A stretch of DNA of 64,000 nucleotides. It comes from Closterium sp. Naga37s-1 (taxonomy: Eukaryota; Streptophyta; Zygnematophyceae; Desmidiales; Closteriaceae). Position numbers and translations under genes: made by a program. The number at the start of each line of letters is the position of its first letter. Position 1 is the first letter of the stretch. Shown piece after piece: positions 1 through 62,700 of the stretch. The notes beneath the pieces were generated by a model. The model had not been told where the DNA came from and ran no database searches. It saw only the letters and a program-made list of their open reading frames with translations. Where the stretch lies: positions 806,001-870,000 of the forward strand of contig CANJKZ010000263.1 in NCBI GenBank assembly GCA_947471745.1, read 5' to 3'.

Positions 1-778
1 GTGCGTGAATGTGTGTGTGTATGGAATGGTATGAGGGCATGGGATAATATATATTTCATGCTTATAATTGTGTGTGAATGTTGAGTCATGATGTCGAGTG
101 TGTGTGTCGAGTCAATAGCGAGTTATCGCTAGACGCGTGTTACGCGGTCGTTTGTGTCTCGCGCGCGGTTTCTATTTTGTCGTGCGCGGTTTCTATTTTG
201 TCCTGTGTCGAACGTTCGGCGTGTCGCAGGTGTGTGCAGCAGACCCATCAAGAACTCAAGGATGAGTTTGTGATGAAGAGCCCGAGCCTTGGTGTCAAGC
301 CTCAAGTGATTTCGAAGCTCGCCAAAAAGGGTACACCTCAAGATATTGAAGATATTTACATTACTTTGTGTAGTGTAACATTTCACTTGGTGTAGGCCCT
401 AGTGAAGGGTAGTTTCGAGACCCTTCGTGGTTGGGGACAGTGTGGCACTGTTCCACATCACTGTACCTCGGCTCTTGGGGTTTGTAGGAGCTGGGAGTCA
501 TTCCCAACTCGTAACTCTTCCTATCTTGTGTTCTAAGACTATAGTGGCTGCCATAGTACCGTTCGTTCAAACCGACGCTGTGTCGTCAATTCTTTATCAA
601 ATCGTGCAATCTAAATTGCTAATTGTAGACGACGTGACGACGTTCCAGATCCAATTTGAATCAAGTCATTTGCAGCTGTGACCAGAACGCTATCAACATT
701 TGAAGCCGCTGTGCAGAAATCCGTCTGTGCTCTCTATCTTTCGTTTTAGGCACATTCAAGCCTATTGTGACTATAACA
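1..778 (+). repeat. 5' LTR of copia A (cut by window edge)
   Basis: It aligns base for base with 5661-6438, with about one difference. A TATA-like run lies at 44-54. The segment ends in TATAACA and is followed by the primer-binding site. Confidence 0.93.
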
Positions 779-5577: not shown

Positions 5578-5618
5578 GAGAGCAACATATCCTAAGGCCA
5601 ACAATCCGAGGGGGAGTT

Positions 5619-6438
5619 TGTTGGTGCAACCCTACGGTTTGCACTCGGCTTGTTGTCCGTGTGCGTGAATGTGTGTGTGTATGGAATGGTATGAGGGCAT
5701 GGGATAATATATATTTCATGCTTATAATTGTGTGTGAATGTTGAGTCATGATGTCGAGTGTGTGTGTCGAGTCAATAGCGAGTTATCGCTAGACGCGTGT
5801 TACGCGGTCGTTTGTGTCTCGCGCGCGGTTTCTATTTTGTCGTGCGCGGTTTCTATTTTGTCCTGTGTCGAACGTTCGGCGTGTCGCAGGTGTGTGCAGC
5901 AGACCCATCAAGAACTCAAGGATGAGTTTGTGATGAAGAGCCCGAGCCTTGGTGTCAAGCCTCAAGTGATTTCGAAGCTCGCCAAAAAGGGTACACCTCA
6001 AGATATTGAAGATATTTACATTACTTTGTGTAGTGTAACATTTCACTTGGTGTAGGCCCTAGTGAAGGGTAGTTTCGAGACCCTTCGTGGTTGGGGACAG
6101 TGTGGCACTGTTCCACATCACTGTACCTCGGCTCTTGGGGTTTGTAGGAGCTGGGAGTCATTCCCAACTCGTAACTCTTCCTATCTTGTGTTCTAAGACT
6201 ATAGTGGCTGCCATAGTACCGTTCGTTCAAACCGACGCTGTGTCGTCAATTCTTTATCAAATCGTGCAATCTAAATTGCTAATTGTAGACGACGTGACGA
6301 CGTTCCAGATCCAATTTGAATCAAGTCATTTGCAGCTGTGACCAGAACGCTATCAACGTTTGAAGCCGCTGTGCAGAAATCCGTCTGTGCTCTCTATCTT
6401 TCGTTTTAGGCACATTCAAGCCTATTGTGACTATAACA
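5619..6438 (+). repeat. 3' LTR of copia A
   Basis: 820-bp LTR, TGTTGGTGCAACC to ACTATAACA, preceded by the polypurine tract GAGGGGGAG at about 5609-5616. Confidence 0.93.
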
Positions 6439-27938: not shown

Positions 27939-28460
27939 CGGAAGCGGTGAGGTGCGCTGAGAGGCAGCAGCGGTTCATGCACAGAAGCAGAAGAGCCGGC
28001 AAGCTTATTGTGCCAGCTGGTGGAGAAAGGTAACCAACCGCCTACAAACAAACATGGGGATGCACTGAACCCAAGGGATAACTCGCACGGCCATGCTGAA
28101 TCATGCAATTTGGTGTCATACATCTTTTAGGAATACCTACTTCGGGATGGCAAAAAGACGTTGGGATGTTAACAGGGCATGGGGATGATACCAACACGAG
28201 GGAGGTGGTGGATGGCAATGCGGGGAGGGACTGCCAATGGGGCTGGCCGGCAGGCTGACAGTTCACTTGTACGTATGTGTCCCTTGCGGGCAGGCAGTGC
28301 GACGAGGAGAATGTGCCCACTTGAACTCCAACGCTGGCATCAGTCTGCGCGTGGGTGCGACAATGTGAGATACATACAAGGGTACAAAGCACGTGTGAAA
28401 ATAGACCAGAGTAGATGGGAACGTTACACCCCACCTGCCAGGCCCCACCCACCCACCCAT
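27939..28460. other. Spacer between convergent genes
   Basis: No convincing gene is seen. It should contain 3' ends of the 94-residue gene (+) and of the MAMYB-like gene (-), including any last MAMYB exon that I could not place. Confidence 0.35.
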
Positions 28461-28462
28461 GT

Positions 28463-28537
28463 ACCTGCGAGGTCGTCCCCCTTGGAGTGGAATGCTTCTT
28501 GCAGCTCAGCGAGCCGATTGAAGCAGCGCTGCTTGTG
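28463..28537 (-). other. Duplicate of the MAMYB exon end with its splice donor
   Basis: On the minus strand this encodes QRCFNRLAELQEAFHSKGDD-LAG followed by GTACAT, a diverged copy of QRCFKRFAELRDKFRSKGGD-LAG followed by GTGCGT at 28583-28656. Candidate acceptors (CACAAG, AAGCAG) lie just before it. It could be a second, alternative or decayed exon. Confidence 0.6.
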
Positions 28538-28582
28538 AGAATTCTCAAAAGCAACCTACCTGCAGATTCGCACCCCACGCAC

Positions 28583-29591
28583 CTGCGAGGTCGCCCCCCT
28601 TGGAGCGGAACTTGTCTCTCAGCTCAGCGAAGCGCTTGAAGCACCGCTGCTTGGTCTGCCCCGGCACAGCACTGGCCACGCGGTCCCACCGCAGGGGCGT
28701 GTCCTTGGGGAACTCCTTCAGCGCCTGCACCAGCGCGCGGTCCTGCGCCTCCGTCCACGTGGTTACCGCGTTACCACCACCCTTGCCCTCTGCCTCTGCC
28801 GCGCCCCCTGGGGCGATCCCTTCCTCCTCCCATCTGCTTGTGGGCGCGGGTTCGGCTCCCCCCGCCCCCCCCGCTCCCCCCGCGCCCGCGCTGCTGCCCT
28901 TGTGTTGCTTGCGCTGCGACAGGAACGCGGCGTACGCGTCGCGATCCGACGGCTTCTGCAGCGCGACGGCCTTGGCGGATCGGATCACGTCGTCCACGGC
29001 GCGCCGCCCAGACCCTACGCCTTTTGCTACCTTCTCCCACCGCTGCGTCGTCCCGCGAGGAAGCTTCACGAGAAGCTTCTTCAGCTGGTCCCACTCCTCG
29101 CGCGTCCACTCACTCGTGTCGACGCCTTCGCTCGCGGCGGCGCTGGCGGCGCTCCCGCCGTTGGCGGCGCCGCCGTCTGCGGCGCGTTGGACGGGGAGAT
29201 CCGCCAGCTCAGCTTCCTGCGGCTCGCGAGCGACCGGGTTCTTGTAACGAGAGGCTGGGGATGGTTCGTCTGCTGGTTGCTCCTCGGCGTGATGGTGTTC
29301 TTCTAACGGGGGACCGACACCAACTCGGCAGTCTCCAGCTGTCTGTGTGATAGGAGCGAGAGGGCCTATAACGAGGGCGAGCGCGATCCAGATGAGCGCG
29401 AACTGGAGGAATCCTGACGTCATGATTCCCGCCGCTAGAAATGCGGCGGCGAATCCGCAGAGGATGAGGAGAACGGGGCGAGAGACCGAGGCGTCTGGAT
29501 CGAGCTGGTCTTCTGGCGAAACGAACGGCTCAGATGCGAGGCGCATGCGCGGCTTGACGTAATAATCTCCATCATCGAAATCGTCATCCAT
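28583..29591 (-). CDS. MAMYB: MAMYB-like membrane-anchored MYB/SANT protein (main exon)
   Basis: One large exon codes for 336 residues from ATG at 29591 to a donor GCAG|GTGCGT near 28582. Residues ~38-80 hold two adjacent hydrophobic segments after the sequence VSRPVL and end in GPLAP, the N-terminal anchor seen in plant MAMYB. A first SANT/MYB repeat spans ~160-205 (EWTREEWDQLKKLL, RWEKVA) and a second ~278-325 (TWTEAQDRALVQAL, RWDRVA), resembling the paired SANT domains of DNAJC2/ZRF1. In Arabidopsis MAMYB sits in the ER membrane and affects root-hair growth; a DNA-binding or chromatin role for this copy is inference. The start is supported by the acidic leader directly before the anchor. 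The short 3' exon is not located. A diverged copy of the exon end lies 45 bp downstream. The gene is divergent from the decarboxylase gene, 1.54 kb away. Confidence 0.85.
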
Positions 29592-31132: not shown

Positions 31133-34100
31133 ATGGTAGCGAGGGAGCAAACCACGGAGGTGCAGGAAGGTGCTTGTAACGGGATGACAGTGCAGGAAGA
31201 TGCTTGTAACGGGATGACAGTGCAGGACGGTGCTTGTAACGGGATGACAGTGCAGGAAGATACTTGTAACGGGCTGACAGTGCAGGACGGTGCTTTTAAC
31301 GAGGTGACAGCTCAGGAAGGCAGTGCTATTGCAGGCGGGGCAGGAGCAGAGGGCACATTATTCAGAGCGCTGGAGGCGGAGGAGGTGCGCAGGCAGGGCC
31401 ATCGCATGGTGGAGTTCATTGCAGACTATCTGCAGGGCGTGGGGGACAGACCCGTGTGTAGCACCGTGCAGGTGAGCCACGTGTGTCCTGCCGTGCCATG
31501 CCATACCATGGCATGGCATGCTATAGCGCGGCGTGCCTTGCTGTGCATTGCTGCACGGTGCCATGTCATGCCATGCCATGCCATGCCGTGCCATGCCATG
31601 CCGTACCGTACGGTGCTATGCCATGTTATGCCACGCTCGCAGTTGACAGCACTCGGCAGCAGCATTGCATGGCAGGGCGGTTGTGAGAGAGTAAGGGCGG
31701 TTGTGAGAGAGTAAGGGCGGTTGAGAGAGAGTAAGGGCGGTTGTGAGAGAGTAAGGGCGGTTGAGAGAGAGTAAGGGCGGTTGAGAGAGAGTAAGGGCGG
31801 TTGAGAGAGAGTAAGGGCGGTTGAGAGAGAGTAAGGGCGGTTGAGAGAGAGTAAGGGCGGTTGAGAGAGAGTAAGGGCGGTTGAGAGAGAGTAAGGGCGG
31901 TTGAGAGAGAGTAAGGGCGGTTGAGAGAGAGTAAGGGCGGTTGAGAGAGAACAGGCAATGGTGGAAGCGGTGGAGGAGAATTGCGTGAGTGCACCCGCAG
32001 CATGCAGCAGGGCTGGTTGCATGCGGTTACCAGCAGTTGTCAGCACACCAGACGCACTCATTCTCCTGCACCCCCTCCCTCTCTTGCAACGCATCCCACT
32101 GCACTCCATGCTCTGCGCCTGCTAACCACACTGCCCACGCCTTGCCCTGCATGCGCGGCCCCACTGTTGCCCCCTCCCGCCACCATGACAGCCCGGCTAT
32201 CTGCGGCCTCTGCTGCCCGCCCACGCCCCCGACCATGGCGAACCACTGGACGCCATTCTCTCAGGTCATGCGCGCTCCCTCTCGCCCCCATCCGTGTGCC
32301 GTCGCCTTGGCCCCACCTGTGTGCATTCCTCCATCTTCCTTTGAACCACCTTGCCCACCCCCCTCCCTCGCTGCCTGCCCCTACCCTCCCACGGGTATCT
32401 CGCACCTGTAATTCCCTCCCTTCCATCCACTGCCGCACCCACTTTCTTCTCCCTCAACGCACTCCTTGCCTCGCACCCCTCCTCTCCATCCCTCCACCCC
32501 CCTCTGCACCGCACAGACATATCGAGCGCCATCCTGCCGGGCATAATGCACTGGCAGAGCCCGGCCTTCTTCGCCTTCTTCTCCTCGCCCACCAGCGCCG
32601 CCGCCATCTGTGCCGACGCCCTCAACGTCGTCGGCTTCTCCTGGGCTGCTGCGCCTGCAGCCACGGAGCTGGAGGAGGTCGTCATGGACTGGATGGTGGA
32701 CCTGCTAGGGCTCCCCGATGGGTTCCATTCGGTTAAGTCAGGTGAGAAGAAGGGAGTGGGCGGGGTGGGGGGTGCGGGGTGCAAGGTGCGGGGTGCGGGG
32801 TGGGGGTCATCACCACGCAGACGCCCTCATGAGTGCCCTGAACGTGGTCGGCTTCTCGTGGGCCGCCGCTCCTGCAGCCACGGAGCTGGAGGAGGTTGTG
32901 CTGGACCGGCTGGTGGACGGACCTGCTCGGACGTTCCCGATGGGTTCCACTCAGTCAAGTCAGGTGAGAAGGGAGTGGGCGGGGTGGGGGGTGCGGGTCA
33001 TCATCAGCGCCCTCAACTCAACGTGGCGGGCTTCTCCTGGGCTGCCGCTTCCGCTGCCACGGAGCTAGAAAGCAATCGTCGTGGGTTGGCTGGCTGATAT
33101 CCTGGCGCAGCCGGAGGGGTTCCACTTGGTTAAGTCAGGTGAGAGGGAGTGGCGAGAGTATTGGGAATCATATGTACAGACTCCCTCATCAGCGCACTCT
33201 TCAGTGCCGTCAACGTGATGGGCTTCTCCTGGGCCGTCAACGTGATGGGCTTCACCTGGGCCGTCAACGTGATGGGCTTCTCCTGGGCCGTCAACGTGAT
33301 GGGCTTCTCCTGGGCCGTCAACGTGATGGGCTTCTCCTGGGCCGTCAACGTGATGGGCTTCTCCTGGGCCGTCAACGTGATGGGCTTCTCCTGGGCCGTC
33401 AACGTGATGGGCTTCACCTGGGCCGTCAGCGTGGTGGGCTTCTCCTGGGCCGCCCCGCCGCCCCGCTGCCACGGAGCTCAGAGAGATTGTTGTGGACTGG
33501 CTTGCTGACTTGCTGGGGCTGCGAGGTGGGTTGGGTTCCACTCGGTCAAGTGAGGTGAGACGGAGTGGGGGTGGGGGTCATTTGCACCAGCGCCCTCATC
33601 GGTGCGCTCAGCCCCACGTGGTGGGCTTCTCCCGGGCCGCCGCCCCTGATGCCACGGAGCTCGAGGCGATCGTCATGGACTGGCTGGTGGACTTGTTAGG
33701 GCTGCCAGAGGGCTTTCACTCGGTTAAGTCAGGTGAGGGGGAGTGAGGTGAGCTCAACAGTGGACAGCACAGGAGGCGCAGTGACGCGCTCATCAGTGCC
33801 CTCGACGTGGTGGGCTGCTCCTGGGCCACTGCTCCTGGGCCACTGCTCGTGCTGCCACGGAGCGCAAGGAGGTTGCCACGGAGCGCAAGGAGGTTGCCAC
33901 GGAGCGCAAGGAGGTTGCCACGGAGCGCAAGGAGGTTGCCATGGACGAGCTGGCTGACCTGCTGGCGCTGCCTGTTGGGTTAACCTTGGTGAAGTCGGGT
34001 GACTAGGAGTGAGGGGTTGAGTCGAGGGGATGGGGAGGGAGGGAGGTGAGGGGTGTGGTACAGCATGGCAGCACCACAACATCGCTTTCCTCAGCCGCTT

Positions 34101-34929
34101 GCTCTCACTAGCAGGCATGTGAGCATCAGCACTCCCAGTGCACTCACATTCATCCTTCCGTTCTCCCACACACCGTGGCGTGCGTTGCACCGTGTCACTG
34201 TGTGACTGTGGCTCTGTGGCAGGCGGGCAGGGCGGGGAGGTGATTCACGGCACGGCCAGTGAGGCGCTGCTGGTGGCGCTGCTGGCCGCCAGGCGGAGAG
34301 TGCTGGACCGCGTAGTGGGGCCGGCTGGTAGTATGGAGGAAGCGGCAGCAGATTCAGCAGCAGCAGTAGCCTGCAGGCAGGGTGCTCAGGAGAAGAAACG
34401 GGCAGCAGAGGGGCGGCTGATAGCACACCTTAACGAGGCGGAGAGCAGGCTTATATGGAGGATAGTGTCAGCACGGAATGGCAGGCAGAGGTGCAACGGG
34501 AGCGTGGGGGTGACACATGAGGAGTGGCTGGTGGATGCTGCAGGCGATGGGGATGGCGATGGCAGTGGGGCTTGTGTTATTGGTACCACCAGTAGCACTG
34601 GTGCAGGTGCTGGTCAGGCTGGCAGCATTAGTGGCGGGGCGGCTGCTGCCAGTAAGGCTGCTGCTGGTGCGTGTGAGCAGGGAGAGGCTGCCGGGGCCCC
34701 GTGGGGCAGTGCGGAGGACAGGGCAGCACAGTGCCAGGTGGCATACGTGTCGGACCAGACGCATGCATGCGCACTCAAGGCGTGCCGTGTGGCGGGCATG
34801 CCCGAGAGCAACGTGCGTGTGCTGCCCACCACTGCTGCATCGGCTTATGCTCTCACTCCCCGCCAGCTGTTGGATGCGGTGCAGAGGGATGAGGCTGCTG
34901 GCCTCATTCCCTTCTTCCTCGTCCTCACT
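31133..34929 (+). CDS. Aromatic-L-amino-acid decarboxylase-like gene, 5' half (exons 1-4)
   Basis: Four exons join in phase: 31133-31471, 32192-32264, 32517-32741 and 34223-34929, 448 codons, ending at a GTAAGT donor. They match the N-terminal half of group II PLP-dependent decarboxylases (tyrosine/tryptophan/DOPA type). The matches include GHRMVEFIADYLQ, PGYLRPLLP, PGIMHWQSPAFFAFF, GFSWAAAPAATELE, the PLP-phosphate-binding HGTASEALLVALLAAR (~220) and SDQTHA (~389), whose His stacks on the PLP ring in the family. The half with the PLP-binding lysine is missing: from about 35.0 kb the intron runs into a chromovirus. Substrate cannot be predicted, and aldehyde-synthase activity is equally possible. 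Oddities are a decapeptide repeat at residues ~10-60, a ~125-residue low-complexity insertion between HGTASEA and SDQTHA, and five extra copies of the end of exon 3 in intron 3. It is probably a truncated pseudogene, or has its 3' exons beyond the window. Confidence 0.85.
31161..31310 (+). repeat. 30-bp coding minisatellite, five units
   Basis: The unit TGCAGGAAGATGCTTGTAAC + GGGATGACAG repeats in frame at the start of the decarboxylase and encodes EDACNGMTVQ-like decapeptides. The last two units are the most diverged. Known decarboxylases have no such N-terminal repeat. Confidence 0.9.
31490..31632 (+). repeat. CCATG pentanucleotide microsatellite in intron 1
   Basis: Imperfect CCATG/CCGTG repeats, cleanest at 31560-31605, lie just after the exon 1 donor. 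Confidence 0.85.
31679..31949 (+). repeat. 20-bp minisatellite in intron 1, about 13 units
   Basis: The unit GGTTGAGAGAGAGTAAGGGC is nearly invariant; the first two and the fourth units carry a GTGAGAG variant. The copies are contiguous, without spacers. Homogeneity implies recent expansion. Confidence 0.93.
32821..32963 (+). other. Extra copy 1 of the end of decarboxylase exon 3
   Basis: It encodes ALNVVGFSWAAAPAATELEE as in exon 3 and ends TCAG|GTGAG. A possible acceptor CCACGCAG precedes it. At 143 nt it would shift the frame if spliced in as a cassette. Confidence 0.75.
33008..33138 (+). other. Extra copy 2 of the end of decarboxylase exon 3
   Basis: It retains GTGGCGGGCTTCTCCTGGGC and the end GTTAAGTCAG|GTGAG. 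A possible acceptor is CATCAG. It is more diverged than copy 1; 131 nt, not a multiple of three. Confidence 0.7.
33193..33554 (+). other. Extra copy 3 of the end of decarboxylase exon 3, internally expanded
   Basis: It begins after CTCATCAG, contains nine in-frame 27-bp units, then continues into the ACGGAGCT...GACTGGCTTGC homologous part and ends AGTGAG|GTGAG. Confidence 0.72.
33209..33451 (+). repeat. 27-bp minisatellite coding VNVMGFSWA, nine units
   Basis: GTCAACGTGATGGGCTTCTC + CTGGGCC repeats nine times in frame with only a few substitutions. The unit is the exon 3 segment for VVGFSWA, so it arose by expansion inside a duplicated exon. Confidence 0.93.
33591..33732 (+). other. Extra copy 4 of the end of decarboxylase exon 3, best preserved
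   Basis: From about 33619 to 33732 it is open and encodes VVGFSRAAAPDATELE, IVMDWLVDLLGLPEGFHSVK and the split Gly, followed by GTGAGG. A possible acceptor is GCACCAG. Confidence 0.75.
33782..33998 (+). other. Extra copy 5 of the end of decarboxylase exon 3, internally expanded
   Basis: It starts with GCGCTCATCAGTGCCCTCGA as in the other copies, includes four 21-bp units, then GACGAGCTGGCTGACCTGCT and ends GTCGG|GTGACT. It is the most diverged copy. Confidence 0.68.
33854..33937 (+). repeat. 21-bp minisatellite coding ATERKEV, four units
   Basis: GCCACGGAGCGCAAGGAGGT + T repeats four times without change. It derives from the ATELEEV segment of the exon. Confidence 0.92.
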
Positions 34930-35013
34930 GTAAGTGGGAGGTGTCTCGTTGCTTCCTTCTTTCCCACTCTCACTGGAAGTTGAAGGTAACTCGATCCTTT
35001 CCTCACGCGCGTC

Positions 35014-38000
35014 ATGGCGAAAATTGCGACAGAAGCAGAATCGATCGTGACTTCGCAGCAGTTGCGAAATTTTCCCAAGGCCCAAGAAATTCGAGCCCCC
35101 AGCACCTTTGATGGGGAAATCGACGCTAGGCGCTGGCTTTTGGCGATCGAAATTTATTTCGCCGCCATTGGATGGACAGCACCAGCACTCGACAGAAACA
35201 AAATTATGTTTGCAGCAACACTACTGCGCGGACCAGCAATTGAATGGATAAGCGGAAGCGGTTTATTAAACCAAGGAGAAGCGACGTGGCAGCAGTTCCG
35301 TGAAGGATTACTACAACGTTTTGAGCCGATTAATGCAGCGTTAATCGCCCGCGACAAAATGCATCGTCATCGACAAATCGGGAGCGTCACAAACTACACA
35401 CAACAAATGGAGGAATTGTTCAACCGCATCCCCGACGTCACGGAAGGCGAAAAAATTAGAGCATTCATCGCGGAGCTGAAAAAAGAAACACGACAACATG
35501 TTGCGGCCGCAAATTGGAGCAGCTACAACGACGTCGTTTCGGCAGCAGAACGTTTCGACGTAACCACGATCGGAACATGACGACTTCATGGACGAGCTAG
35601 ACGACATGGAGGACGCTTGGCTACCCCCACGTGCGTCGACCCGATGGAACTCGATCGAATCGATGCAAAGGCAAGACCAAAGAAGAACAAATCTAAGTGT
35701 TTTTTCTGCGACAAGCCCGGACATCGACTCATCGATTGTGACGATATGAGAACTGCACGTTCAGCGCTTAGGGACCGCAGCAGTGGAGCAAAGTTAATGA
35801 GAACATTGGAGGATCGTGGAGTGAATTCTTCAACCCACGAACGGACTCTACCAGGGAAAATCGTCGAGGGAAACAAAATCTCCGCGACACAACACCCTGC
35901 TGGACCCGGACAACTCCAAAAAGGCCCTGTAAAAAGTAAGCACCCCTTAAAAATATCATACAAGGATGCTTTACTTGGGAAAAATTCCCTTGGGTCTACG
36001 GCCTTTGTGAAATCACAAGGGAAATTCCAGAAGAAAATAAATGTACCGGTACGACAACTACAGCAGCTGCGCATGGGGAACCAACAACGGAGCGTGGAAG
36101 ATCGACCTTCCAACGACGGCATCGTCCTCTCTCTGAAAAACCAGCCCATGTCGACCAACCGGTCCCCACGGAAGAAGTTGGTGGTGCTGAAACAGCTCAA
36201 GAGGGAGCTGGAGGTCAACATGAAGCTGCGACGACCTCAAACCTCCTCTACAGATGCATATGCAACATCTGAAACATCTACGATATCTACCCATCTATGA
36301 ATTCTACTACGAGCTCGAGAACCACATCGTCGACGACAACAAAAAATCATGGCAATAGGGAACGGCAGGACCGGCCATCTGCCACCCCAGGAGAAAACAC
36401 AGAGCTATGGGAAATGCCATATGATCCAATCAACGAGACGATCAACGGGTACAACGAGCAACGCCAACCACTTTTGCTCGAGGTGATCTGCAATGGACGA
36501 CGCCTCCAAGCACTCGTGGACAGTGGAGCATCCCATTCAGTATGCGACAAGGCAGCTCTCAAACGCATCAATGAGAAGTACACGCCTTCAAACTTCCAAG
36601 CTACGATGGTTGATGGAAGCAAATTACAACTCTACGGCGAAGCAGCGTTACACCTGCAGATGGGTCCTCTTCGCTGGAAACCGACCCTACCCATCACCAA
36701 CATCAAAGGGCTAGACTTGATTCTTGGGAGAGATCTTCTGAAGAAGTTCAACCCCGAGATCAACTGGGTCACCCGCACGGCGAGTATCTACAATCAAGAT
36801 AGAAGAGTTCCACTTCCGAATTGGAGCAACACGGGAGATATTCCGGAGGAGACTCTCGCACGCTTCGAGAAGGACGTGAAGCGAACCATGGCAGGGTTTG
36901 TTGCACTGGTTACCAACGAGGACGAAGGAGAGAGAAAAACACTCGAGCTTCCACTTGCAATCCAGAAACTTCTAGAAGAGTTCGAAGACGTTCTCCCTGA
37001 CGACCTTCCACACCAGTTGCCGCCATACCGAACCCACCAGCACGAGATCATCGAAGAACCTGGTTCAAAACTGACCTTCCGAGCACCATATCGACTCAGC
37101 CCAACCGAGTTGGCCGACATGAAGAAACAGATCGAGTACCTTCTGGACAAAGGACTCATTCGACCATCAACATCACCATACGGTGCACCAGTGCTTTTCA
37201 CGCCAAAACTTGACGGAAGCTTACGCATGTGCATCGACTACCGAGCCCTCAACAAGCAGACGATCAAGAACAAGTATCCGATTCCACAGATTGACGATCT
37301 ACTTGACCAGCTTCGTGGAGCCACGGTATTCTCAAAACTCGATTTGAGATTGGGATATTGGCAGATCCGGATGGCGGATAACTCCATCCATAAGACGGCG
37401 TTTCGGACACGATACGGATCCTACGAGTACCTTGTCATGCCGTTTGGACTCACCAACGCACCCGCTACATTCCAGGCCGAAATGAACCATATTCTCAGGC
37501 CTCTACTCGACGAATGCGTGGTGGTGTATCTGGACGACATCCTGATCTACTCGAGGGACATGAAGCAGCACATCGAACACCTACGATGTGTCTTCGAGAT
37601 ATACTTCGACGGGAGAAGTTCTATGTCAAGCTATCCAAGAGCGAGTTTGCCTTGAAGAAAGTTCAGTTCCTTGGACACATGGTGAGCGCTCAAGGAGTCC
37701 ATGTCGACCCAAAGAAGTTCATAGCCGTGCGTACGTGGAAGACATCGGAGAACGTGAAGGAACTTCAGCAATTCCTTGGCTTTGCGAACTACTATAATCG
37801 GTTCGTGCCACAGTATGCGAAGATTGCAACACCTCTCACCAATCTACTGAAGAAGAATACACCGTTCAAGTGGGAGGATGTGCACCAGCAAGCCATGGAG
37901 CAGTTGAAGACCGCACTCACGTCTGCACCCGTCCTGATCCTGCCAGATCCAGAAAAAGACTACGTCATCGAAGTTGACGCTAGCGACCAAGCAGTTGGAG

Positions 38001-40211
38001 CAGTCTTGATGCAAGACCAAGGGAAAGGACTACAGCCAATCGCTTACCTCAGCAAAAAATTACACGGGGCAGAACTCAACTACCCGATTCACGACAAAGA
38101 GGCCTTAGCGAGCATCACCGCATTCAAGACATGGCGATGCTACCTCGAAGGGAGAAAGACCACGGTCTACACTGACCATTGCAGCCTGAAGTACCTAAAG
38201 ACGCAGCCGACCCTCTCCAGACGACAAGTCAGGTGGATTGACTTCCTCGAGACGCACTTCGACTACGACATCGTGTACAAGCCGGGACACAAGAATAAGG
38301 CAGATGCACTGAGCCGGCCTGGACACGTTGCTGCCATACAGATTTAGGGGATGAATCCGCTACTCAAGGGACTCTTCACGCACGGGTATATCATCGACCC
38401 TGAGATTCCCTTGGCAGAGAAAAAGAAATTGTTGCAGTGGGACCACGACGTCGCACTACGCAAAGGATCAAGAAAGATATGGGTACCCAACTACCCGCCT
38501 CTTCGGCAATTGCTTCTCGAAGAATTCCATGACGTGCGCTACGCTGGACACTTCGGGAGTAACAAGACTCTTGCCGGGATTGCGAAAGTCTACTATTGGC
38601 CTAACATGGCGGATGATGTGCAGAAGTTCGTCACTTCGTGCGACACATGCCAGCGGATGAAGAGCAGTAAGCAGAAGAAAGCAGGACTTCTTCAGCCTCT
38701 ACCCGTCCTGGAACAGCCTTGGCAAGTGGTCAGCTTGGATTTCATCACCGGTTTACCACCTACCAACGCGGGGCATGACGCCATCCTGGTCGTCATCGAC
38801 AAATTCTCAAAGATGGGACACATCATTCCGACACATACAACCGCACGCACGGAGGAAACGGCACAACTATTCCTCAAACACATCATCTCACAGCACGGGA
38901 TCCTAACAACCCTCATATCCGACAGGGACCCCAAGTTTACTAGCAAGTTCTGGAAAGAGCTCATGTCGCTCATGGGGACACGCCTAGCAATGTCATCTGC
39001 ATATCATCCCCAGACCGATGGGCAGACAGAGCGCTTGAACCAAATTGTGGAATAACTCTTGCGCGCAGCGTGCAAGGACGACATTAACAAGTGGGACTTG
39101 CACTTGTCGGTGTTGGAGTTCGCCTACAATAATGCAAAGCATGCCGCAATAGGAGAGACCCCATTCTTCCTCTGTTACGGTCGACATCCGCTAACTCCTC
39201 AACAGCCGACAGTACCTGCAACTGTCCAACCCGCGCACGACTTCGTTACCACAATGCAGCAGCTTTGGGATCAGACACACAAGCGTCTACAGGACATACA
39301 GTCTTCACAGAAACGCTTGGCCGATCGCCATCGACGTGATCATACCATTGCAGTTGGTGACCATGTGCTTCTCGACACATGCAACCTCAACCTCGGTCAC
39401 CTTCCATCCAAGTTACGACCTCGCTTCTGCGGACCTTTCCTCGTAGAAGAGCAGGTCACTCCAATCACATTCCGCTTGCGCCTACCAGCTACTTGGAAGA
39501 TTCATAACGCCTTCCACGTACAGCTTCTTAAACCCTATCGAGACCCAAATAAGCTGTACACGGGACGCCAACCTCCGCCGCCGCCTCCAGTCCTCGTGAA
39601 TGATGAACTTGAGTACGAGGTTGAATCTGTGCTTGCACATCGTCGTCGTCGGCATGGCGCCCTGGAGTTTCTCATACGCTGGAAGGGCTATGATCCTTTT
39701 GAGGACAGCTGGGTCTCTGAAGAAGACATGAGTAACGCTCGATGTTCTCTCCGCGACTATCTTGTCAAGCAGGGTGTTACATCTACCACCCAGCTTTGAG
39801 GGGGGGAAGTGTGAGAGTACGCCGACGTTCGACATATTTCTCATTTCCATATTTTTACTCCATCTTATTCTCCTTATTTTTCTCTTTCATTTGCACTTTA
39901 TTTCACCTCAATCGGACTACTATTCTATTTTCTAGAGCTTTCCGATTATTTCACTTATTTGGTATATTCGGCACCGACATTTACATTATACGGCACCGAC
40001 AGCACCGACAGTGGTGTACAAGTCGTAATCTCGCCATAATCCGAAGTGCCAATGGGCTTGCGTGCTTATGCGCACTTGTGATTATCTATTCTAGAAGAGC
40101 GCGTTCCCGAAGGTTCGGATTATCTGTTGTTTCTATGTATTTCCGAGTATAAATACGCCTTGTACTCACCTTTAGTGCAACATTCTCGAGTGGAAATTTG
40201 ATCCTGTGACA
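35014..40211 (+). mobile_element. Ty3/gypsy chromovirus G, 5' LTR missing
   Basis: Recognisable from the gag start (about 35.0 kb) to the end of a single 3' LTR, 39810-40211 (TGTGAGAG to CTGTGACA), preceded by the purine tract GAGGGGGGG. Parts in order are gag, a CCHC knuckle (CFFCDKPGHRLIDC, near 35.7 kb), protease (VDSGASHS, near 36.5 kb), RT (YLDDILIYS, near 37.5 kb), RNase H, integrase and a chromodomain (RWKGYDPFEDSW, near 39.7 kb). It is broken, with roughly five breaks. With one LTR it cannot be dated. Its 3' end abuts a copia RT fragment, so it was inserted in that copia; its 5' end abuts the decarboxylase intron through a deletion or rearrangement. Confidence 0.88.
39810..40211 (+). 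repeat. 3' LTR of chromovirus G
   Basis: 402 bp; a TATAAATA box lies at about 40150. The right border is set by the switch to copia sequence (CGGGCGACG) and the TG..CA ends. Confidence 0.75.
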
Positions 40212-52392: not shown

Positions 52393-53211
52393 TGTTATAG
52401 TCACAATAGGCTTGAATGTGCCTAAAACGAAAGATAGAGAGCACAGACGGATTTCTGCACAGCGGCTTCAAACGTTGATAGCGTTCTGCTCACAGCTGCA
52501 AATGACTTGATTCAAATTGGATCTGGAGCGTCTTCACGTCGTCTACAATTAGCAATTTAGATTGCACGATTTGATAAAGAATTGACGACACAGCGTCGGT
52601 TTGAACGAACGGTACTATGGCAGCCACTATGGTCTTAGAACACAAGATAGGAAGAGTTACGAGTTGGAAATGACTCCCAGCTCCTACAAACCCCAAGAGC
52701 CGAGGTACAGTGATGTGGAACAGTGCCACACTGTCCCCAACCACGAAGGGTCTCGAAACTACCCTTCACTAGGGCCTACACCAAGTGAAATGTTACACTA
52801 CACAAAGTAATGTAACTATCTTCAATATCTTGAGGTGTACCCTTTTGGCAAGCTTCGAAATCACTTGAGGCTTGACACCAAGGCTCGGGCTCTTCATCAC
52901 AAACTCATCCTTGAGTTTTTGATGGGTCTGCTGCACACACCTGCGACACGCCGAACGTTCGACACAGGACAAAATAGAAACCGCGCACGACAAAATAGAA
53001 ACCGCGCGCGAGACACAAACGACCGCGTAACACGCGTTTAGCGATAACTCGCTATTGACTCGACACACACACTCGACATCATGACTCAACATTCACACAC
53101 AATTATAAGCATGAAATATATATTATCCCATGCCCTCATACCATTCCATACACACACACATTCACGCACACGGACAACAAGCCGAGTGCAAACCGTAGGG
53201 TTGCACCAACA
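52393..53211 (-). repeat. 3' LTR of copia D
   Basis: 819 bp, paired with 57854-58672 and matching the copia A LTR in reverse orientation. Confidence 0.94.
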
Positions 53212-56200
53212 AACTCCCCCTCGGATTGTTGGCCTTAGGATATGTTGCTCTCTCAGTTCAGAGCCATCCCAGCCAGCTTGCAACACTTCCAATGCTGCTG
53301 CTGCACCAGCCTCTTGGTCATCATGTCAGCCGGCTGCCCCGTGGTCTTCACGTAGCGCAACTCAACTTCACCCGCGGTTACCATGCTCCTCGTCCAATGC
53401 CACTTCATCCTCATGTGCTTCGTGAGTCCATGCAACACAGGGTTCTTAGCAAGAGCAATGGCACCCTGGCTGTCACAGTACAGTGGGGTAGGTCCTTGCT
53501 GCTCCTCCCCCAATTCAGCCAACAAACGCCGCTGCCACACAATCTCCCGTACGGCACGGAAGAGTGCCATGTACTCGGACTCCACCGAGCTCAAAGCTTG
53601 GTCAACCTGCTTCTTGCTCTCCCAAGCAGTTGGGCCTCCACCAACACAGCATATGAAGCCTCCCACACTTGTCATGTCCTCTGGTTCTGATGCATATGAA
53701 GCATCCGAGTAGGCGGTGAGGAACAAACGCCCGGGTTCAACACCATCCGTGCCCTTTTGGCGCCTTTGTGCCGCCGCCGAGTATTGCAGCCCAACGGTCG
53801 GTGTTTGGCCAAGATACTTGGCCACCCTCATTCCAGCTGCTACCTGCTCTTCATTAGGGCATTGCACAACCCTAGCCAGCTGCCCGGTAGCAAACGCGAC
53901 GTCCGGTCGGGTGTTTACCGCCGCATACATGAGGCTGCCCACCAACGAGTGAAATCGGCGCCTCTCCTCTTCACCAACGCTCTCCTCCTCTGGTCCCTTC
54001 ACACACTTGAACCCAGAGGGAAAGGGTGTAGCCACATGGCCTTCACTCTGCCCAAAGTTGGCAGCCAATGCCTCCAGGTACTTTCGTTGATGCACCCGCA
54101 TGCACCGCTTCTCCACATCTCGTTCGATGTGGAGCCCAAGGTAGAAGCTCACGTCACCAAGGGCCTTGCACTTGAACTTGTCTTGAAGCTTCAGCATCAC
54201 CTCCTTCACAAGGTCAGAAGAGGGTGAGAAAATGAGGATGTCATCCACATAAACCACCATGAAACTCCTCTGCTCCCCCTCGCCAAGCATGAACAAGGAG
54301 TGATCGGCCGTTGAGGGAGTGAAGCCGATCCCCTCCAACACTTCGCGCAGCTTCATGTACCATTGCCTAGGGGGCTGCTTCAGCCCATAGAGTGCCTTCT
54401 TCAGCTTCCACACTCTGCCACTACCATCATCAAACCCCTCTGGCTGCGCCATGAAAATCTCCTCCTCAAGGATGCCGTTAAGGAATGCCGTTACGATGTC
54501 CATTTGCTTTACTACCCATCCTTTGATGGCGGCTCCCGCGAATAGGGTTCGCAGCGTCGTCGGCTTCACCACAGGGGCAAACAGCTCCTTGAAGTCCACC
54601 TTCTCCTTCTGCTGGTACCCCTTGGCTACAAGCCTAGACTTGTAGCGCTCGATCTTGCCGTCGACATCCGACTTGATTTTGAAGAGCCACTTGGACGTTA
54701 TCGCCGTACGCCCCTCCGGTAGCTCCACCAATTCAAACGTGTCATTCTCCTCGATGCTCTTCAGCTCACTCTCCATGGCCTTCTTCCACTCCTCAGCATC
54801 ACTACTCTCCAAAGCCTCCTTAAGAGTTGCTGGTTCTCCCGGCATCTCCACCGGAGAGAAGAACGCGAAGGCACACTCCTCGTAGTCACTCTCCTCGTCG
54901 TCTCCGACCATCATTGCCGCTCCGGCCAGGGCTGTCTTGCCCTGCTTTCCCGGCGCATCATAGGTCAGCCTATTAGGGGGTTGAACTCTCCTCTTCCCCC
55001 TTCAGCTCCAAAGGCAGCTCCACATGCTCCAAACCGGAACTCTTCACCTCCCCAAACCGCACGCCTATCTTCGCCTCATTCTCCGCCTTCCAATCCTTGT
55101 ACATGAAGTTCTCCATGAACTTGCAGTCCCTGCTCACCAAGAAATTCTTGGTGAATGGGTCCCGAAGAAGCCATCCCTTGCTGTTTTGAGCCATGCCCAA
55201 GTGCACGGCCCACACCGCCTTGGCACCAAGCTTGTTGTGCCGAAGATGCTTAGGCACGAGCGCCATGCATATGCACCCGAACACCCGAAGCATATCCACC
55301 TTTGGCTTCCTTCCTAGCCACTCCACATAGGGCACCCATTTGTCTGCTCCCAAATGAGTCAAGGCTCTGTTCTTGGCCACACACGCGCTCCGCACCGCAT
55401 CAGGCCAGAAATAGTCGGGTAGCCCGGCTTCAATGAGCAACCCGCGTGCCGCCTCCGTGATTGTGCGGTTCGCTCGCTCGGCGATGCCGTTCATTGCAGG
55501 GGAGTATGGCATGGTGAGGGAGTGCCGAATACCATTCTTCTTCAGCCACAACCCAAACTCCTTGCTCAGGAACTCTCCCCCTCGATCGGTGCGGATTGAC
55601 TTGACTAGACGGTCTTGTTGCCGCTCCACCATCGGGAACCAATCCATCTTCAACGTTTCAGCCACGTCGCTCTTCTTGGCCAGAACGTACACCCAAGTCA
55701 TGCGGGTGTAGACGTCGACAATTGTGAGAAAATACTCAGCTCCAGCAGCTCCAAGCTTCAGGGGGCCCACCACGTCCATCACCACCTCATCAAGCGGTGC
55801 CTTTGCCGTTGCCTCCGAACTAGGGAACGGAAACCGGGTGAACTTGGCTTGAATGCACGTCGGACAGCCAAGCACCTCATCGGGCTCCCCCTTCACACGT
55901 ATGCCAGCAACCATCTCATTCTTCACTAGCTGCTGCAAGATGGGCAGGGCCACATGCCCCATGCGCCGATGCAAGGTGAGCCAATCACACTCCCCCGTAG
56001 CCGAAGTTGGATTGGAGAATGCCGCGCTCGCAATAGCGCCCCACATACTCTCTCCGTAGTCCTCCTCCGCTGCTGCCTCTGGGTTCTCCTCACCCTTTTG
56101 CTGCTCCTTGGTTGCTGCACCACTCTCCTTAGGTTCACTGAACTTGCTGGTCCCTCCAGGTTTGCTCTTCTTGAGCTCATTCTCCTTAGCACGACCGTTC

Positions 56201-57853
56201 GCGCCATCGTCGCTACCGACCGCTCCATCCTTGGTGCTGATGCTTGCTGCCACTTGCCTCTCCTTAGGCATAGGGACTACTGGGATCTGCCACATCTCGT
56301 TGTAGACATCCCTGTCCTCATGAAGGTCCCAAAGAATTCGATCGCCAAGCCTTGCGGTGTAGGTCTTGGCTCCCTTCGAGTTCGTGTCCATGCCGGCCTT
56401 TGCCAACCGCCGCACGGAAATCAGGTTTGCAGCAAGGCTGGGCACCCAAAGCACGTTCTTGAGGCCCACCATCTTCCCATCAGCACCCTTGAACATGGCC
56501 TTGCCCATGCCTTTCACCTCTGCTCGCTGCCCCAAAGCCGATGTGACATGCTTCACCGGTGACGGCTCGAGTTCGGTGAGCAAGTCCGGGCGAGGTGTCA
56601 TGCTATAGGTAGCGCCACTATCAATCACCCAATAGTCCAGGGGGTGTAGGGTCACCTTCCCCACAGCTGCTGGCTCCTCAAAGCCTTCATCCTTCTCTGG
56701 ACCAGCCGGTACTTGCGTCGACACGAAGTAGAATAGACCCGGGTATCGATCGTCGCTCGGGTCCTTGTCGTTGTCTCCGCTCTTCATGTTTGCAGCTCCA
56801 CCACCGCGACCGCCACGGCCTCCACGGCCTCGTCCTCTCCCTCCTCCTGCTCCTCTACCCTCTTGGCCTTGAGCAGGGGTCCAACCATCAGGGAGTTTGT
56901 AGCAGTCGCGCCACATGTGTCCGCTCTTGTGGCAATAGTGACACTCGCCGTCGAATCGGCCGCGACCGCGTCCGTAGCTCTTGTCGTCGCTGCCGTAACC
57001 GCCACTCCTGCGGCCTCCGCCGAAGTTGCTGCCACCAAACCTTCCTCCCCCTCGTCCTCTGCCTCTTCCTCGACCATATCCACGGCCGATGCTCGCTGCC
57101 CCAGCGCCATCCGCACTCGCCAACTCACGGCGGCGGAAATCCTCTTGAAGGATAGCTCGCTTCACGTCTTCAAGCGAGAGGCGGGGCAAGTCGCGATTAA
57201 GGTTGATGATGAGCGAGGACCATGACTCTGGGAGTAAGGCCAGCAACTTGGTCTTCTTTTGGAGCTCACTGTAGTTCAAATCAGCTCCCTCAAGCCGCGT
57301 CAACAAGTCGAAGAATTTCTGCACCCCTTCTTCAACCGCTTCGTCTTCTTCAATTCGTAGTGCCGCCATTTGCCGTTCCAACACCACCGCTACCGCCGCT
57401 GTTGCAGGAGCATGTACACCCTTGAGAGCAGCCCATGCCTTTGGTTCTTTCTCTGGTTCACGCTGGAATGGCTTGATGTGACGGATCTGACTGCTCCCCA
57501 ACGCTTGCCCAAGTAAGAGATAGCCTTGTGCGCTCTTCCGCACCCACGGGCTCTTCTCCGGGTCGTTCTCGGGGCGCTTCTCCGTTCCTTCCATCACCTC
57601 CAGCAGGTCATAGTGGTCAAAGATGTTCTCCATCTTGAAGGACCATTCAGCAAAGTTGTCACCGTTGAACTTGTCAAGCCCAAACACCCTAGGCTCATCC
57701 CTAGGTGGGCCAAGACTTGGTTGCATGGGCGCCATGGCTGAATCACGGGGTTGGCCTTGAGCTTGAGCTTCTCCACTGCCACCAGCACCTCTGCCACCCC
57801 TTTCCTCAGGTCCAGACATTGTCGAAACTGCTCCAAGGGGCTCTGATACCACT

Positions 57854-58672
57854 TGTTATAGTCACAATAGGCTTGAATGTGCCTAAAACGAAAGATAGAG
57901 AGCACAGACGGATTTCTGCACAGCGGCTTCAAACGTTGATAGCGTTCTGCTCACAGCTGCAAATGACTTGATTCAAATTGGATTTGGAGCGTCTTCACGT
58001 CGTCTACAATTAGCAATTTAGATTGCACGATTTGATAAAGAATTGACGACACAGCGTCGGTTTGAACGAACGGTACTATGGCAGCCACTATGGTCTTAGA
58101 ACACAAGATAGGAAGAGTTAAGAGTTGGGAATGACTCCCAGCTCCTACAAACCCCAAGAGCCGAGGTACAGTGATGTGGAACAGTGCCACACTGTCCCCA
58201 ACCACGAAGGGTCTCGAAACTACCCTTCACTAGGGCCTACACCAAGTGAAATGTTACACTACACAAAGTAATGTAACTATCTTCAATATCTTGAGGTGTA
58301 CCCTTTTGGCAAGCTTCGAAATCACTTGAGGCTTGACACCAAGGCTCGGGCTCTTCATCACAAACTCATCCTTGAGTTCTTGATGGGTCTGCTGCACACA
58401 CCTGCGACACGCCGAACGTTCGACACAGGACAAAATAGAAACCGCGCACGACAAAATAGAAACCGCGCGCGAGACACAAACGACCGCGTAACACGCGTCT
58501 AGCGATAACTCGCTATTGACTCGACACACACACTCGACATCATGACTCAACATTTACACACAATTATAAGCATGAAATATATATTATCCCATGCCCTCAT
58601 ACTATTCCATACACACACACATTCACGCACACGAACAACAAGCCGAGTGGAAACCGTAGGGTTGCACCAACA
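57854..58672 (-). repeat. 5' LTR of copia D
   Basis: 819 bp, next to the minus-strand priming site. Confidence 0.94.
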
Positions 58673-58977
58673 GGATGTTGAGAGGAGGCGGCTGAAGGTG
58701 CATCAGTCACACTACATCTCTGGTGTTCTGGAGCGCTATGGTGTGACTGGGGGTCGCACTGTGATGACACCATTCCCCCCAAGCTTCAAACTGAAGAAGG
58801 CAGTTGAGGGGGTTGATGTGCTTGAGAATGAGTAGGAGAATGAGTACTAGTCACTCATTGGGAGTGTGATGTATGCTGCTGTGCATACGCGACCTGATGC
58901 TTCATTCGGAGTGGGGCAGCTGGCCAGAGTTGTGCAGCGGCCCACTGAAGAGCAGTTGGAGGTGGCAAAGCACTTGG
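58673..58977 (+). mobile_element. Copia K, RT/RNase H part (right piece)
   Basis: It encodes VERRRLKVHQSHYISGVLE and MYAAVHTRPDASFGVGQLAR, continuing the left piece across copia D (IERD | VERRR). It is cut off by the LTR of copia E. It is broken. Confidence 0.85.
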
Positions 58978-59775
58978 TGTTGGTGCAACCCTACGGTTTG
59001 CATTCGGCTTGTTGTCCGTGTGCGTGCATGCGTGTGTGCATGGAATGGTATGAGGGCATGAAATAATATATATTTCATGTTTACAATAGTGTGTGTATGA
59101 TGAAGCATGATTTTGAATGTGTGCGTCGAGTCAATAGCGAGTTATCGCTAGTCGCGTGTCACGTCGTCGTTTGCGTGTCGTGTGCGGTTTTCTATTTTGT
59201 CGTGTGTGGAACGTTCGGCGTGTCGCAGGTGTGCGCAGCAGACTTCCAAGAACTCAAGGAAGAATTTACCTTGAAGAACCAGAGCTTTGGTTTCAAGATT
59301 CAAGTTATTTCGAAGCTCTCTAAAAGGGTAAACTTTAAGATAGTGAGAATAGTTGCATTACTTTGTGTAGTGTAACATTTCTCTTGGTGTAGGCCCTTGT
59401 GGAGGGTAGTTTCGAGACCCTTCGTGGTTGGGGACAGTGTGGCACTGTTCCACATCACTGTACCTCGGCTCTTGGGGTTTGTAGGAGCTGGGAGTCATTC
59501 CCAACTCGTAACTCTTCCTATCTTGTGTTCTAAGACTATAGTGGCTGCCATAGTACAGTTCGTTCAAACTGACGCTGTGTCGTCAATTCTTTATCAAATC
59601 GTGCAATCTAAATTGCTAATTGTAGACGACGTGAAGACGCTCCAGATCCAATTTGAATCAAGTCATTTGCAGCTGTGAGCAGAACGCTATCAACGTTTGA
59701 AGCCGCTGTGCAGAAATCCGTCTGTGCTCTCTATCTTTCGTTTTAGGCACATTCAAGCCTATTGTGACTATAACA
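58978..59775 (+). repeat. 5' LTR of copia E
   Basis: 798 bp, TGTTGGTGCAACC to TATAACA. The left half is diverged from the A and D LTRs; the right half is nearly identical to them. Confidence 0.92.
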
Positions 59776-62700
59776 AGTGGTATCAGAGCCCCTTGGAGCA
59801 GTTTCGACAATGTCTGGACCTGAGGAAAGGGGTGGCAGAGGTGCTGGTGGCAGTGGAGAAGCTCAAGCTCAAGGCCAACCCCGTGATTCAGCCATGGCGC
59901 CCATGCAACCAAGTCTTGGCCCACCTAGGGATGAGCCTAGGGTGTTTGGGCTTGACAAGTTCAACGGTGACAACTTTGCTGAATGGTCCTTCAAGATGGA
60001 GAACATCTTTGACCACTACGACCTGCTGGAGGTGATGGAAGGAACGGAGAAGCGCCCCGAGAACGACCCGGAGAAGAGCCCGTGGGTGCGGAAGAGCGCA
60101 CAAGGCTATCTCTTACTTGGGCAAGCGTTGGGGAGCAGTCAGATCCGTCACATCAAGCCATTCCAGCGTGAACCAGAGAAAGGACCAAAGGCATGGGCTG
60201 CTCTCAAGGGTGTACATGCTCCTGCAACAGCGGCGGTAGCGGTGGTGTTGGAACGGCAAATGGCGGCACTACGAATTGAAGAAGATGAAGCGGTTGAAGA
60301 AGGGGTGCAGAAATTCTTCGACTTGTTGACGCGGCTTGAGGGAGCTGATTTGAACTACAGTGAGCTCCAAAAGAAGACCAAGTTGCTGGCCTTACTCCCA
60401 GAGTCATGGTCCTCGCTCATCATCAACCTTAATCGCGACTTGCCCCGCCTCTCGCTTGAAGACGTGAAGCGAGCTATCCTTCGAGAGGATTTCCGCCGCC
60501 GTGAGTTGGCGAGTGCGGATGGCGCTGGGGCAGCGAGCATCGGCCGTGGATATGGTCGAGGAAGAGGCAGAGGACGAGGGGGAGGAAGGTTTGGTGGCAG
60601 CAACTTCGGCGGAGGCCGCAGGAGTGGCGGTTACGGCAGCGACGACAAGAGCTACGGACGCGGTCGCGGCCGATTCGACGGCGAGTGTCACTATTGCCAC
60701 AAGAGCGGATTCATGTGGCGCGACTGCTACAAACTCCCTGATGGTTGGACCCCTGCTCAAGGCCAAGAGGGTAGAGGAGCAGGAGGAGGGAGAGGACGAG
60801 GCCGTGGAGGCCGTGGCGGTCGCGGTGGCGGAGCTGCAAACATGAAGAGCGGAGACAACGTCAAGGACCCGAGCGACGATCGATACCCGGGTCTATTCTA
60901 CTTCGTGTCGACGCAAGTACCGGCTGGTCCAGAGAAGGATGAAGGCTTTGAGGAGCCAGCAGCTGTGGGGAAGGTGACCCTACACCCCCTGGACTATTGG
61001 GTGATTGATAGTGGCGCTACCTATAGCATGACACCTCGCCCGGACTTGCTCACCGAACTCGAGCCGTCACCGGTGAAGCATGTCACATCGGCTTTGGGGC
61101 AGCGAGCAGAGGTGAAAGGCATGGGCAAGGCCATGTTCAAGGGTGCTGATGGGAAGATGGTGGGCCTCAAGAACGTGCTTTGGGTGCCCAGCCTTGCTGC
61201 AAACCTGATTTCCGTGCGGCGGTTGGCAAAGGCCGGCATGGACACGAACTCGAAGGGAGCCAAGACCTACACCGCAAGGCTTGGCGATCGAATTCTTTGG
61301 GACCTTCATGAGGACAGGGATGTCTACAACGAGATGTGGCAGATCCCAGTGGTCCCTATGCCTAAGGAGAGGCAAGTGGCAGCAAGCATCAGCACCAAGG
61401 ATGGAGCGGTCGGTAGCGACGATGGCGCGAACGGTCGCGCTAAGGAGAATGAGCTCAAGAAGAGCAAACCTGGAGGGACCAGCAAGTTCAGTGAACCTAA
61501 GGAGAGTGGTGCAGCAACCAAGGAGCAGCAAAAGGGTGAGGAGAACCCAGAGGCAGCAGCGGAGGAGGACTACGGAGAGAGTATGTGGGGCGCTATTGCG
61601 AGCGCGGCATTCTCCAATCCAACTTCGGCTACGGGGGAGTGTGATTGGCTCACCTTGCATCGGCGCATGGGGCATGTGGCCCTGCCCATCTTGCAGCAGC
61701 TAGTGAAGAATGAGATGGTTGCTGGCATACGTGTGAAGGGGGAGCCCGATGAGGTGCTTGGCTGCCCGACGTGCATTCAAGCCAAGTTCACCCGGTTTCC
61801 GTTCCCTAGTTCGGAGGCAACGGCAAAGGCACCGCTTGATGAGGTGGTGATGGACGTGGTGGCCCCCCTGAAGCTTGGAGCTGCTGGAGCTGAGTATTTT
61901 CTCACCATTGTCGACGTCTACACCCGCATGACTTGGGTGTACGTGCTGGCCAAGAAGAGCGACGTGGCTGAAACGTTGAAGACGGATTGGTTCCCGATGG
62001 TGGAGCGGCAACAAGACCGTCTAGTCAAGTCAATCCGCACCGATCGAGGGGGAGAGTTCCTGAGCAAGGAGTTTGGGTTGTGGCTGAAGAAGAATGGTAT
62101 TCGGCACTCCCTCACCATGCCATACTCCCCTGCAATGAACGGCATCGCCGAGCGAGCGAACCGCACAATCACGGAGGCGGCACGCGGGTTGCTCATTGAA
62201 GCCGGGCTACCCGACTATTTCTGGCCTGATGCGGTGCGGAGCGCGTGTGTGGCCAAGAACAGAGCCTTGACTCATGTGGGAGCAGACAAATGGGTGCCCT
62301 ATGTGGAGTGGCTAGGAAGGAAGCCAAAGGTGGATATGCTTCGGGTGTTCGGGTGCATGTGCATGGCGCTCGTGCCTAAGCATCTTCGGCACAACAAGCT
62401 TGGTGCCAAGGCGGTGTGGGCCGTGCACTTGGGCATGGCTCAAAACAGCAAGGGATGGCTTCTTTGGGACCCATTCACCAAGAAATTCTTGGTGAGCAAG
62501 GACTGCAAATTCATGGAGAATCTGATGTACAAGGATTGAAAGGCGGAGAATGAGGCGAAGATAGGCGTGCGGTTGGGGGACGTGAAGAGTTCCGGTTTGG
62601 AGCATGTGGAGCTGCCCTTGGAGCTGAGCAGCGGCAGCACCACCACAAGGCAATCTTCCCTTGTGAATGGGGGAGAGGAGGCCAAGGATGCAGAGGAAGA

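Follow-up and report, generated by a model that had tools for sequence, protein, structure and literature searches.

Intron 3 of a decarboxylase-like gene, located in a 64-kb stretch of DNA from Closterium sp. Naga37s-1 (contig CANJKZ010000263.1; hereafter the window), carries five diverged copies of the last ~120-150 nt of exon 3, each together with a 5' splice site. As judged from its sequence, this array is a real, unusual, and mostly dead partial-exon variant of tandem exon duplication, and it is not a demonstrated splice switch. Our preferred, but tentative, account is that a single partial-exon duplication was amplified in place, and that its copies may have been coding for a long time and are now decaying. 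The divergence among the units bears the mark of coding constraint, which is strongest in exon 3, copy 1, and copy 4.

The gene lies on the forward strand, where exons 1 to 4 (31133-34929) form a single open frame with consistent GT-AG introns in our gene model. The product of these exons matches Pfam family PF00282 (E=5.7e-39), and its best relative in the PDB, as found with phmmer, is plant tyrosine decarboxylase 1 (E=4.7e-39). The match to this family of group II decarboxylases (DDC/TyDC) covers the N-terminal half.

Tandem copies of an exon end

Exon 3 (DISSAILPGIMHWQSP...HSVKSG; 32517-32741) ends in a phase-1 donor, GTCAG/gtgagaag (the slash marks the splice junction), and its 3' part is the segment that is repeated downstream, on the same strand. 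Copy 1 (DALMSALNVVGFSWAAAPAATELEEVVLDRL...; 32821-32963) is preceded by an AG at 32819 and followed by a donor at 32964; its changes relative to exon 3 are nearly all synonymous, and it carries indels of +4 and +1. Copy 2 (33008-33138) has indels of +5 (a CTCAA duplication) and +1 and the donor CAG/gtgag at 33139. Copy 3 (33180-33554) follows an AG at 33178, contains indels of +4 and +5 and a terminal TGA, and has the donor GAG/gtgag at 33555. The core of copy 4 (33591-33732; donor CAG/gtgag at 33733) is open, with a +5 indel upstream of it, and copy 5 (33782-33998) is the most decayed, with a donor weakened to CGG/gtgac at 33999. The gaps between copies are 36-49 nt and would make very short introns. 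Minisatellites detected with Tandem Repeats Finder (TRF) inflate the lengths of copy 3 (27 bp x 9.1 at 33206-33452) and copy 5 (21 bp x 4.4 at 33853-33945 and 14 bp x 2.4 at 33815-33848), and these were gained later than the array itself.

The existence of a five-copy array, as claimed in an earlier note on this DNA, was confirmed by alignment to exon 3. Scores of 210, 107, 105.5, 155.5, and 69.5 were obtained for copies 1 to 5, respectively, whereas the maximum among 300 shuffles for each copy was 30-37. GT donors are indeed found at all five positions the note had listed, with GTGAG in copies 1 to 4 and GTGAC in copy 5, in agreement with its count of four. The note had also described the repeated segment as the last ~130 nt of the exon. 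The copies do correspond to the exon end, but the true span is longer, because homology begins within exon 3 near 32606 (GCCATCTGTGCC) and takes in 12 nt now missing from that exon. Over a 118-nt core, exon 3 is 75-86% identical to the copies, and the copies are 71-79% identical to one another.

Copies 1 to 4 have a common 5' junction, in which an intron-like GGGTCAT (or a variant) is followed by a GCCATCTGTGCCG-like stretch of exon 3, an AG, and then (A)CGCCCTCATCAGTGCCCTC. This arrangement points to a single founding duplication amplified in place rather than to five independent insertions. The AGs at the 5' ends of the copies arise inside duplicated exon sequence, and the units are not duplicates of a complete exon. 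A derivation from complete exons with an ancestral acceptor was ruled out, since copies 3 and 4 resemble exon 3 upstream of the AG when inspected by eye. Furthermore, the introns that follow exon 3 and copy 1 are nearly identical (34 of 35 aligned sites), which indicates that recombination within the array has decoupled the histories of exons and introns.

Other searches gave no additional members. No convincing copies derived from other decarboxylase exons were found in the introns of this gene: a candidate copy of exon 2 in intron 1 (z=5.5) rests on a C/T-rich alignment and is unconvincing, and the string GYLAPVIPS in intron 2 is a weak candidate for an exon copy. Rfam and tRNA scans returned nothing, and viral contigs contained no relatives. 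Decarboxylase matches in genome contigs were exclusively bacterial, and these served for the comparison of four missing residues described below, not for analysis of the array.

Coding signature and codon loss

The positions at which the units differ retain the structure of a reading frame. Parsimony steps at codon positions 1, 2, and 3 number 19/22/46 when all six sequences are considered (P=5e-5) and 18/22/38 when exon 3 is left out (P=6.5e-4), as determined by permuting position labels within consensus-base classes. The third-position excess is also present in copies 2 to 5 by themselves (P=0.003-0.006). Hypermutability of CpG sites was excluded as its source, because CpG-stratified and non-CpG tests both gave P=1e-4. 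Likewise, seven of the 16 differences between exon 3 and copy 1 are transversions.

These 16 differences are distributed 3/0/13 over the codon positions, corresponding to a nonsynonymous divergence (dN) of 0.036, a synonymous divergence (dS) of 0.66, and a dN/dS ratio of ~0.05. The ratio is 0.12 between exon 3 and copy 4 and 0.14 between copy 1 and copy 4. Together, the third-position excess and the low dN/dS values suggest that exon 3 and the copies diverged largely while coding. Terminal branch lengths, estimated with unlinked edges for position 3 versus positions 1+2, differ greatly for exon 3 (0.200 versus 0.013) and copy 1 (0.235 versus 0.026). The corresponding values are 0.262 versus 0.110 for copy 2, 0.181 versus 0.096 for copy 4, 0.118 versus 0.098 for copy 3, and 0.166 versus 0.169 for copy 5. 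Copy 1 thus appears to have been under coding constraint until recently, whereas the pattern in copy 5 resembles neutral evolution. Across the units, the donor and the next ~10 intron nucleotides are little changed; from +3 to +15 of the intron, nine of 13 sites are invariant, compared to 10 of 39 third positions (Fisher P=0.008).

Exon 3 is itself short of coding sequence. Between HWQSP and GFSW it is four residues shorter than every family member compared, a set that includes the PDB relatives (phmmer) and, by alignment, 11 bacterial relatives, human DDC, and Arabidopsis TyDC. This 12-nt deletion (site at 32612-32624, forward strand) is evident relative to all of these relatives and also to copies 1, 3, 4, and 5, which keep the missing codons (DALMSAL, DSLISAL, -ALIGAL, and DALISAL, respectively). 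The loss probably occurred by slippage between GCCCTC direct repeats, and exon 3 is, by this comparison, not the ancestral form. In the DALISAL codons, which exon 3 has partly lost, six of eight steps fall at codon position 3.

The deletion maps to approximately residues 93-96 in human DDC numbering, just ahead of loop 2. In DDC, loop 2 comprises residues 100-110, and its Ile101 and Phe103 reach the active site of the neighboring subunit (PMC8003434). The repeated segment of the array includes this catalytic loop, which bears out the earlier claim that it borders the active site. However, that note missed the codon loss in exon 3 and the third-position signature, as well as the exon-end duplicate in a Myb/SANT gene presented below.

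Present state and competing explanations

In their present form, all five copies are broken. Each has at least one frame-breaking indel (in copy 5, a net +77 from its minisatellites), which supports the suggestion of decay made earlier, as does the unequal extent of damage: copy 1 is the freshest of the five, and copy 5 the most decayed. Inclusion of any of the five as a cassette, using an AG near its 5' end, would give a wrong length or a stop, and hence a frameshift or premature termination. Using the acceptors proposed earlier, the copies are 143, 131, 362, 142, and 217 nt long, and none is a multiple of three, as had been stated; with the alternative AG at 33178-33179, however, copy 3 becomes 375 nt, a multiple of three that contains an in-frame stop. 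Copy 4 is open throughout its core as reported, yet, owing to the upstream +5 indel, neither of the AGs available to it puts it in phase. Removal of the +4 and +1 indels from copy 1 shortens it from 143 to 138 nt, yielding an ancestral-type unit that is a multiple of three and phase 1 at both ends. Extension of exon 3 to the donor of copy 1 adds 222 nt in frame and without stops. Any longer extension, to one of the later donors, runs into a stop at 33095, and retention of intron 3 introduces many stops.

We propose a single tandem duplication with one breakpoint ~40-80 nt into intron 3 and the other within exon 3, near 32606, which would have placed a copy of the end of exon 3, with its 5' splice site, downstream. 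This unit would then have been amplified in place, giving copies 1 to 4 their common junction (GGGTCAT... / ...CAG AC GCCCTC). For much of their history the copies may have been capable of splicing and have contributed to the coding repertoire. The simplest form of this would be a set of alternative exon 3 ends, each entered and left in phase 1 and each bringing a catalytic loop 2. Frame-shifting indels and internal minisatellites have since broken all of the copies. Most likely, the array today is a relic whose only remaining role, if any, is as surplus U1-type donor sequence.

Several observations weigh against this account. A newly formed partial exon lacks an acceptor, and a copy placed beside exon 3, or replacing all of it, would not yield a normal decarboxylase. 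The earlier note had described usable-looking AGs before each copy; AGs are present, but they follow G-rich sequence (25-40% pyrimidine) that lacks a polypyrimidine tract, unlike exons 2 and 3, which are preceded by pyrimidine-rich tracts. A clean swap would require the weak internal GT at 32610. Moreover, all dN/dS values derive from only 38 codons. Finally, the introns after exon 3 and copy 1 are alike despite an exon dS of ~0.66, indicating that recombination has scrambled the histories of these units, and so the coding signal might have been brought in from elsewhere.

The strongest alternative, which we regard as a serious if somewhat doubtful possibility, builds on this last point. It holds that the copies were never exons, but are neutral by-products of tandem duplication in a genome prone to it. 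Their coding-like differences would have been imported through repeated unequal exchange, with each copy recording the state of exon 3, or of some diverged allele or paralogue of the gene, at one time and decaying thereafter. The density of local repeats fits this explanation (57 TRF rows in 64 kb, with minisatellites in exon 1 and intron 1 of this gene), as do the neutral-looking terminal branches of copies 3 and 5 and the lack of a third-position excess in the neighboring Myb/SANT duplicate (3/4/5). The near-identical introns of exon 3 and copy 1, joined to exon parts that differ, likewise imply recent exchange. However, a copy 1 that had been neutral since its split from exon 3 should show about two changes at positions 1+2 for each change at position 3, rather than the 3/0/13 observed between the two, and a simple series of snapshots of exon 3 that then decayed neutrally is hard to reconcile with this copy. 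Import would also require a donor in the form of a diverged gene or allele, and no such sequence is seen in the window.

It is unlikely that the units are live poison or decoy exons, whose donors compete with that of exon 3 or whose inclusion causes a frameshift, so that degradation or retention tunes enzyme level. All five GTs do persist, with CAG/GTGAG in copies 1, 2, and 4 as in exon 3, the first intron bases are less changed than third codon positions, and including most copies would shift the frame or add stops. Set against this are the poor acceptors, the copy-to-copy variation in decay, and the open +222-nt extension, which means that use of the copy 1 donor would not be poisonous. We consider it quite improbable that the exon ends are interchangeable now or were so recently, with the 5' part of exon 3 spliced from a donor at 32610 (TCT/GTGCCG) to one of several copies, although a junction of 32609 with copy 1 would give FFSSPTSAAAIYALMSALNVVGFSW in frame. 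If this were true, catalytic loop 2 (DDC residues 100-110) would be swapped in frame, perhaps tuning the specificity of the enzyme, and the array would amount to an alternative-splicing cluster whose units are partial exons. An assembly artifact, in which repeated sequence was wrongly expanded, is highly improbable. The minisatellites within the copies (27 bp x 9 and 21 bp x 4) are of a kind whose copy number is prone to assembly error, but misassembly gives near-identical copies, and the five units differ at 21-29% of core sites in a codon-structured manner. Simple misassembly of the array is ruled out by this divergence.

Surrounding sequences and known systems

A second exon-end duplicate is present in an adjacent gene. 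On the reverse strand, a Myb-like gene with SANT repeats has a SANT-encoding exon whose end, together with the donor (KQRCFKRFAELRDKFRSKGGDLAG/gtgcgtggg; 28574-28653), recurs 118 bp downstream within the following intron (KQRCFNRLAELQEAFHSKGDDLAG/gtacatggg; 28456-28535). The two 80-nt segments are 82.5% identical, ungapped, and open, and their differences are spread over the three codon positions without a third-position excess. The occurrence of exon-end-plus-donor duplicates in two adjacent genes suggests that this genome makes them readily, and supports a mutational origin regardless of the later fate of the copies. It also raises the question of whether exon ends with 5' splice sites have been copied repeatedly into introns throughout the genome in this lineage.

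The remainder of the decarboxylase gene was delineated as follows. Exon 1 (31133-31471; donor CAG/gtgagc) was located by tblastn with human DDC, together with the gene model and reading frame. An in-frame 30-bp tandem repeat (x 5.4; TRF) at 31160-31320 encodes a repeated VQE/DGACNGMT segment within this exon. Intron 1 contains a 20-bp minisatellite (AGGGCGGTTGAGAGAGAGTA; x 13.9, 98% identical) at 31674-31950. Exon 2 (PGYLRPLLPAHAPDHGEPLDAILS; 32192-32264) ends in a phase-1 donor, and exon 4 (GQGGEVIHGTASEALLVALLAARR... to ...GLIPFFLVLT; 34223-34929) ends at a gtaagt donor at 34930. At 34350-34735, exon 4 includes a ~130-residue Ala/Gly/Asp-rich low-complexity insertion between RVLDRV and QVAYVSDQTH that human DDC lacks.

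Beyond residue ~243, the human DDC search gave no significant match anywhere in the 64 kb. The C-terminal half with the pyridoxal phosphate (PLP)-binding lysine (NPHKW) is therefore absent from the window, and could lie beyond it. Either the gene is truncated or its intron 4 is at least 29 kb long. Given the absence of that half here, the locus itself may be dying. The gag ATG (35014) of a gypsy-type retrotransposon, whose chromodomain is at 39056-39799, lies ~85 bp past the exon 4 donor. No 5' long terminal repeat (LTR) matching downstream sequence was found near 34930-35014, which suggests truncation or rearrangement at the end of the decarboxylase gene. The window as a whole is rich in copia and gypsy retrotransposons. 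Several near-identical copia elements (90-99%) occupy 1-6438 and 52393-64000 in both orientations, with LTR-like ends repeated at 5619-6438, 52393-53211, and 57854-58672, and these are young, nested insertions.

Exons 1 to 4 match DDC/TyDC group II decarboxylases (PF00282) over the N-terminal part, and the region of loop 2 is what the array repeats. Unlike these relatives, exon 3 is four residues short before loop 2, and the window does not contain the PLP-lysine half. The array resembles tandem and mutually exclusive exon clusters of the Dscam type (PMC9013439) in its tandem units with donors in one intron, in the coding-frame conservation among units, and in an ancestral unit that is phase 1 on both sides. 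It differs from them in that only the exon end was duplicated, acceptors were improvised, every unit is now frame-broken, and splicing is at most putative. Work on such clusters usually concerns complete, functioning switches. An array in partial decay that still has a coding signature, next to a parental exon that is short of codons its copies keep, would show the birth and death of a cluster. The present array is of interest as a fossil record, and it hints at a process that may operate across the genome.

Tandem duplication over an exon-intron boundary is also known to move splice signals to a new place. In the known case, one event across a 3' splice site produced a single new spliced intron, whereas here a 5' splice site was duplicated five times. 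Decoy exons of the OGT type are unproductive exon-like units with splice sites within an intron, a feature they have in common with the array. For decoy exons in retained introns (OGT; PMC12017769), control of retention is proven by experiment, whereas the units of the array are exon-like and decaying.

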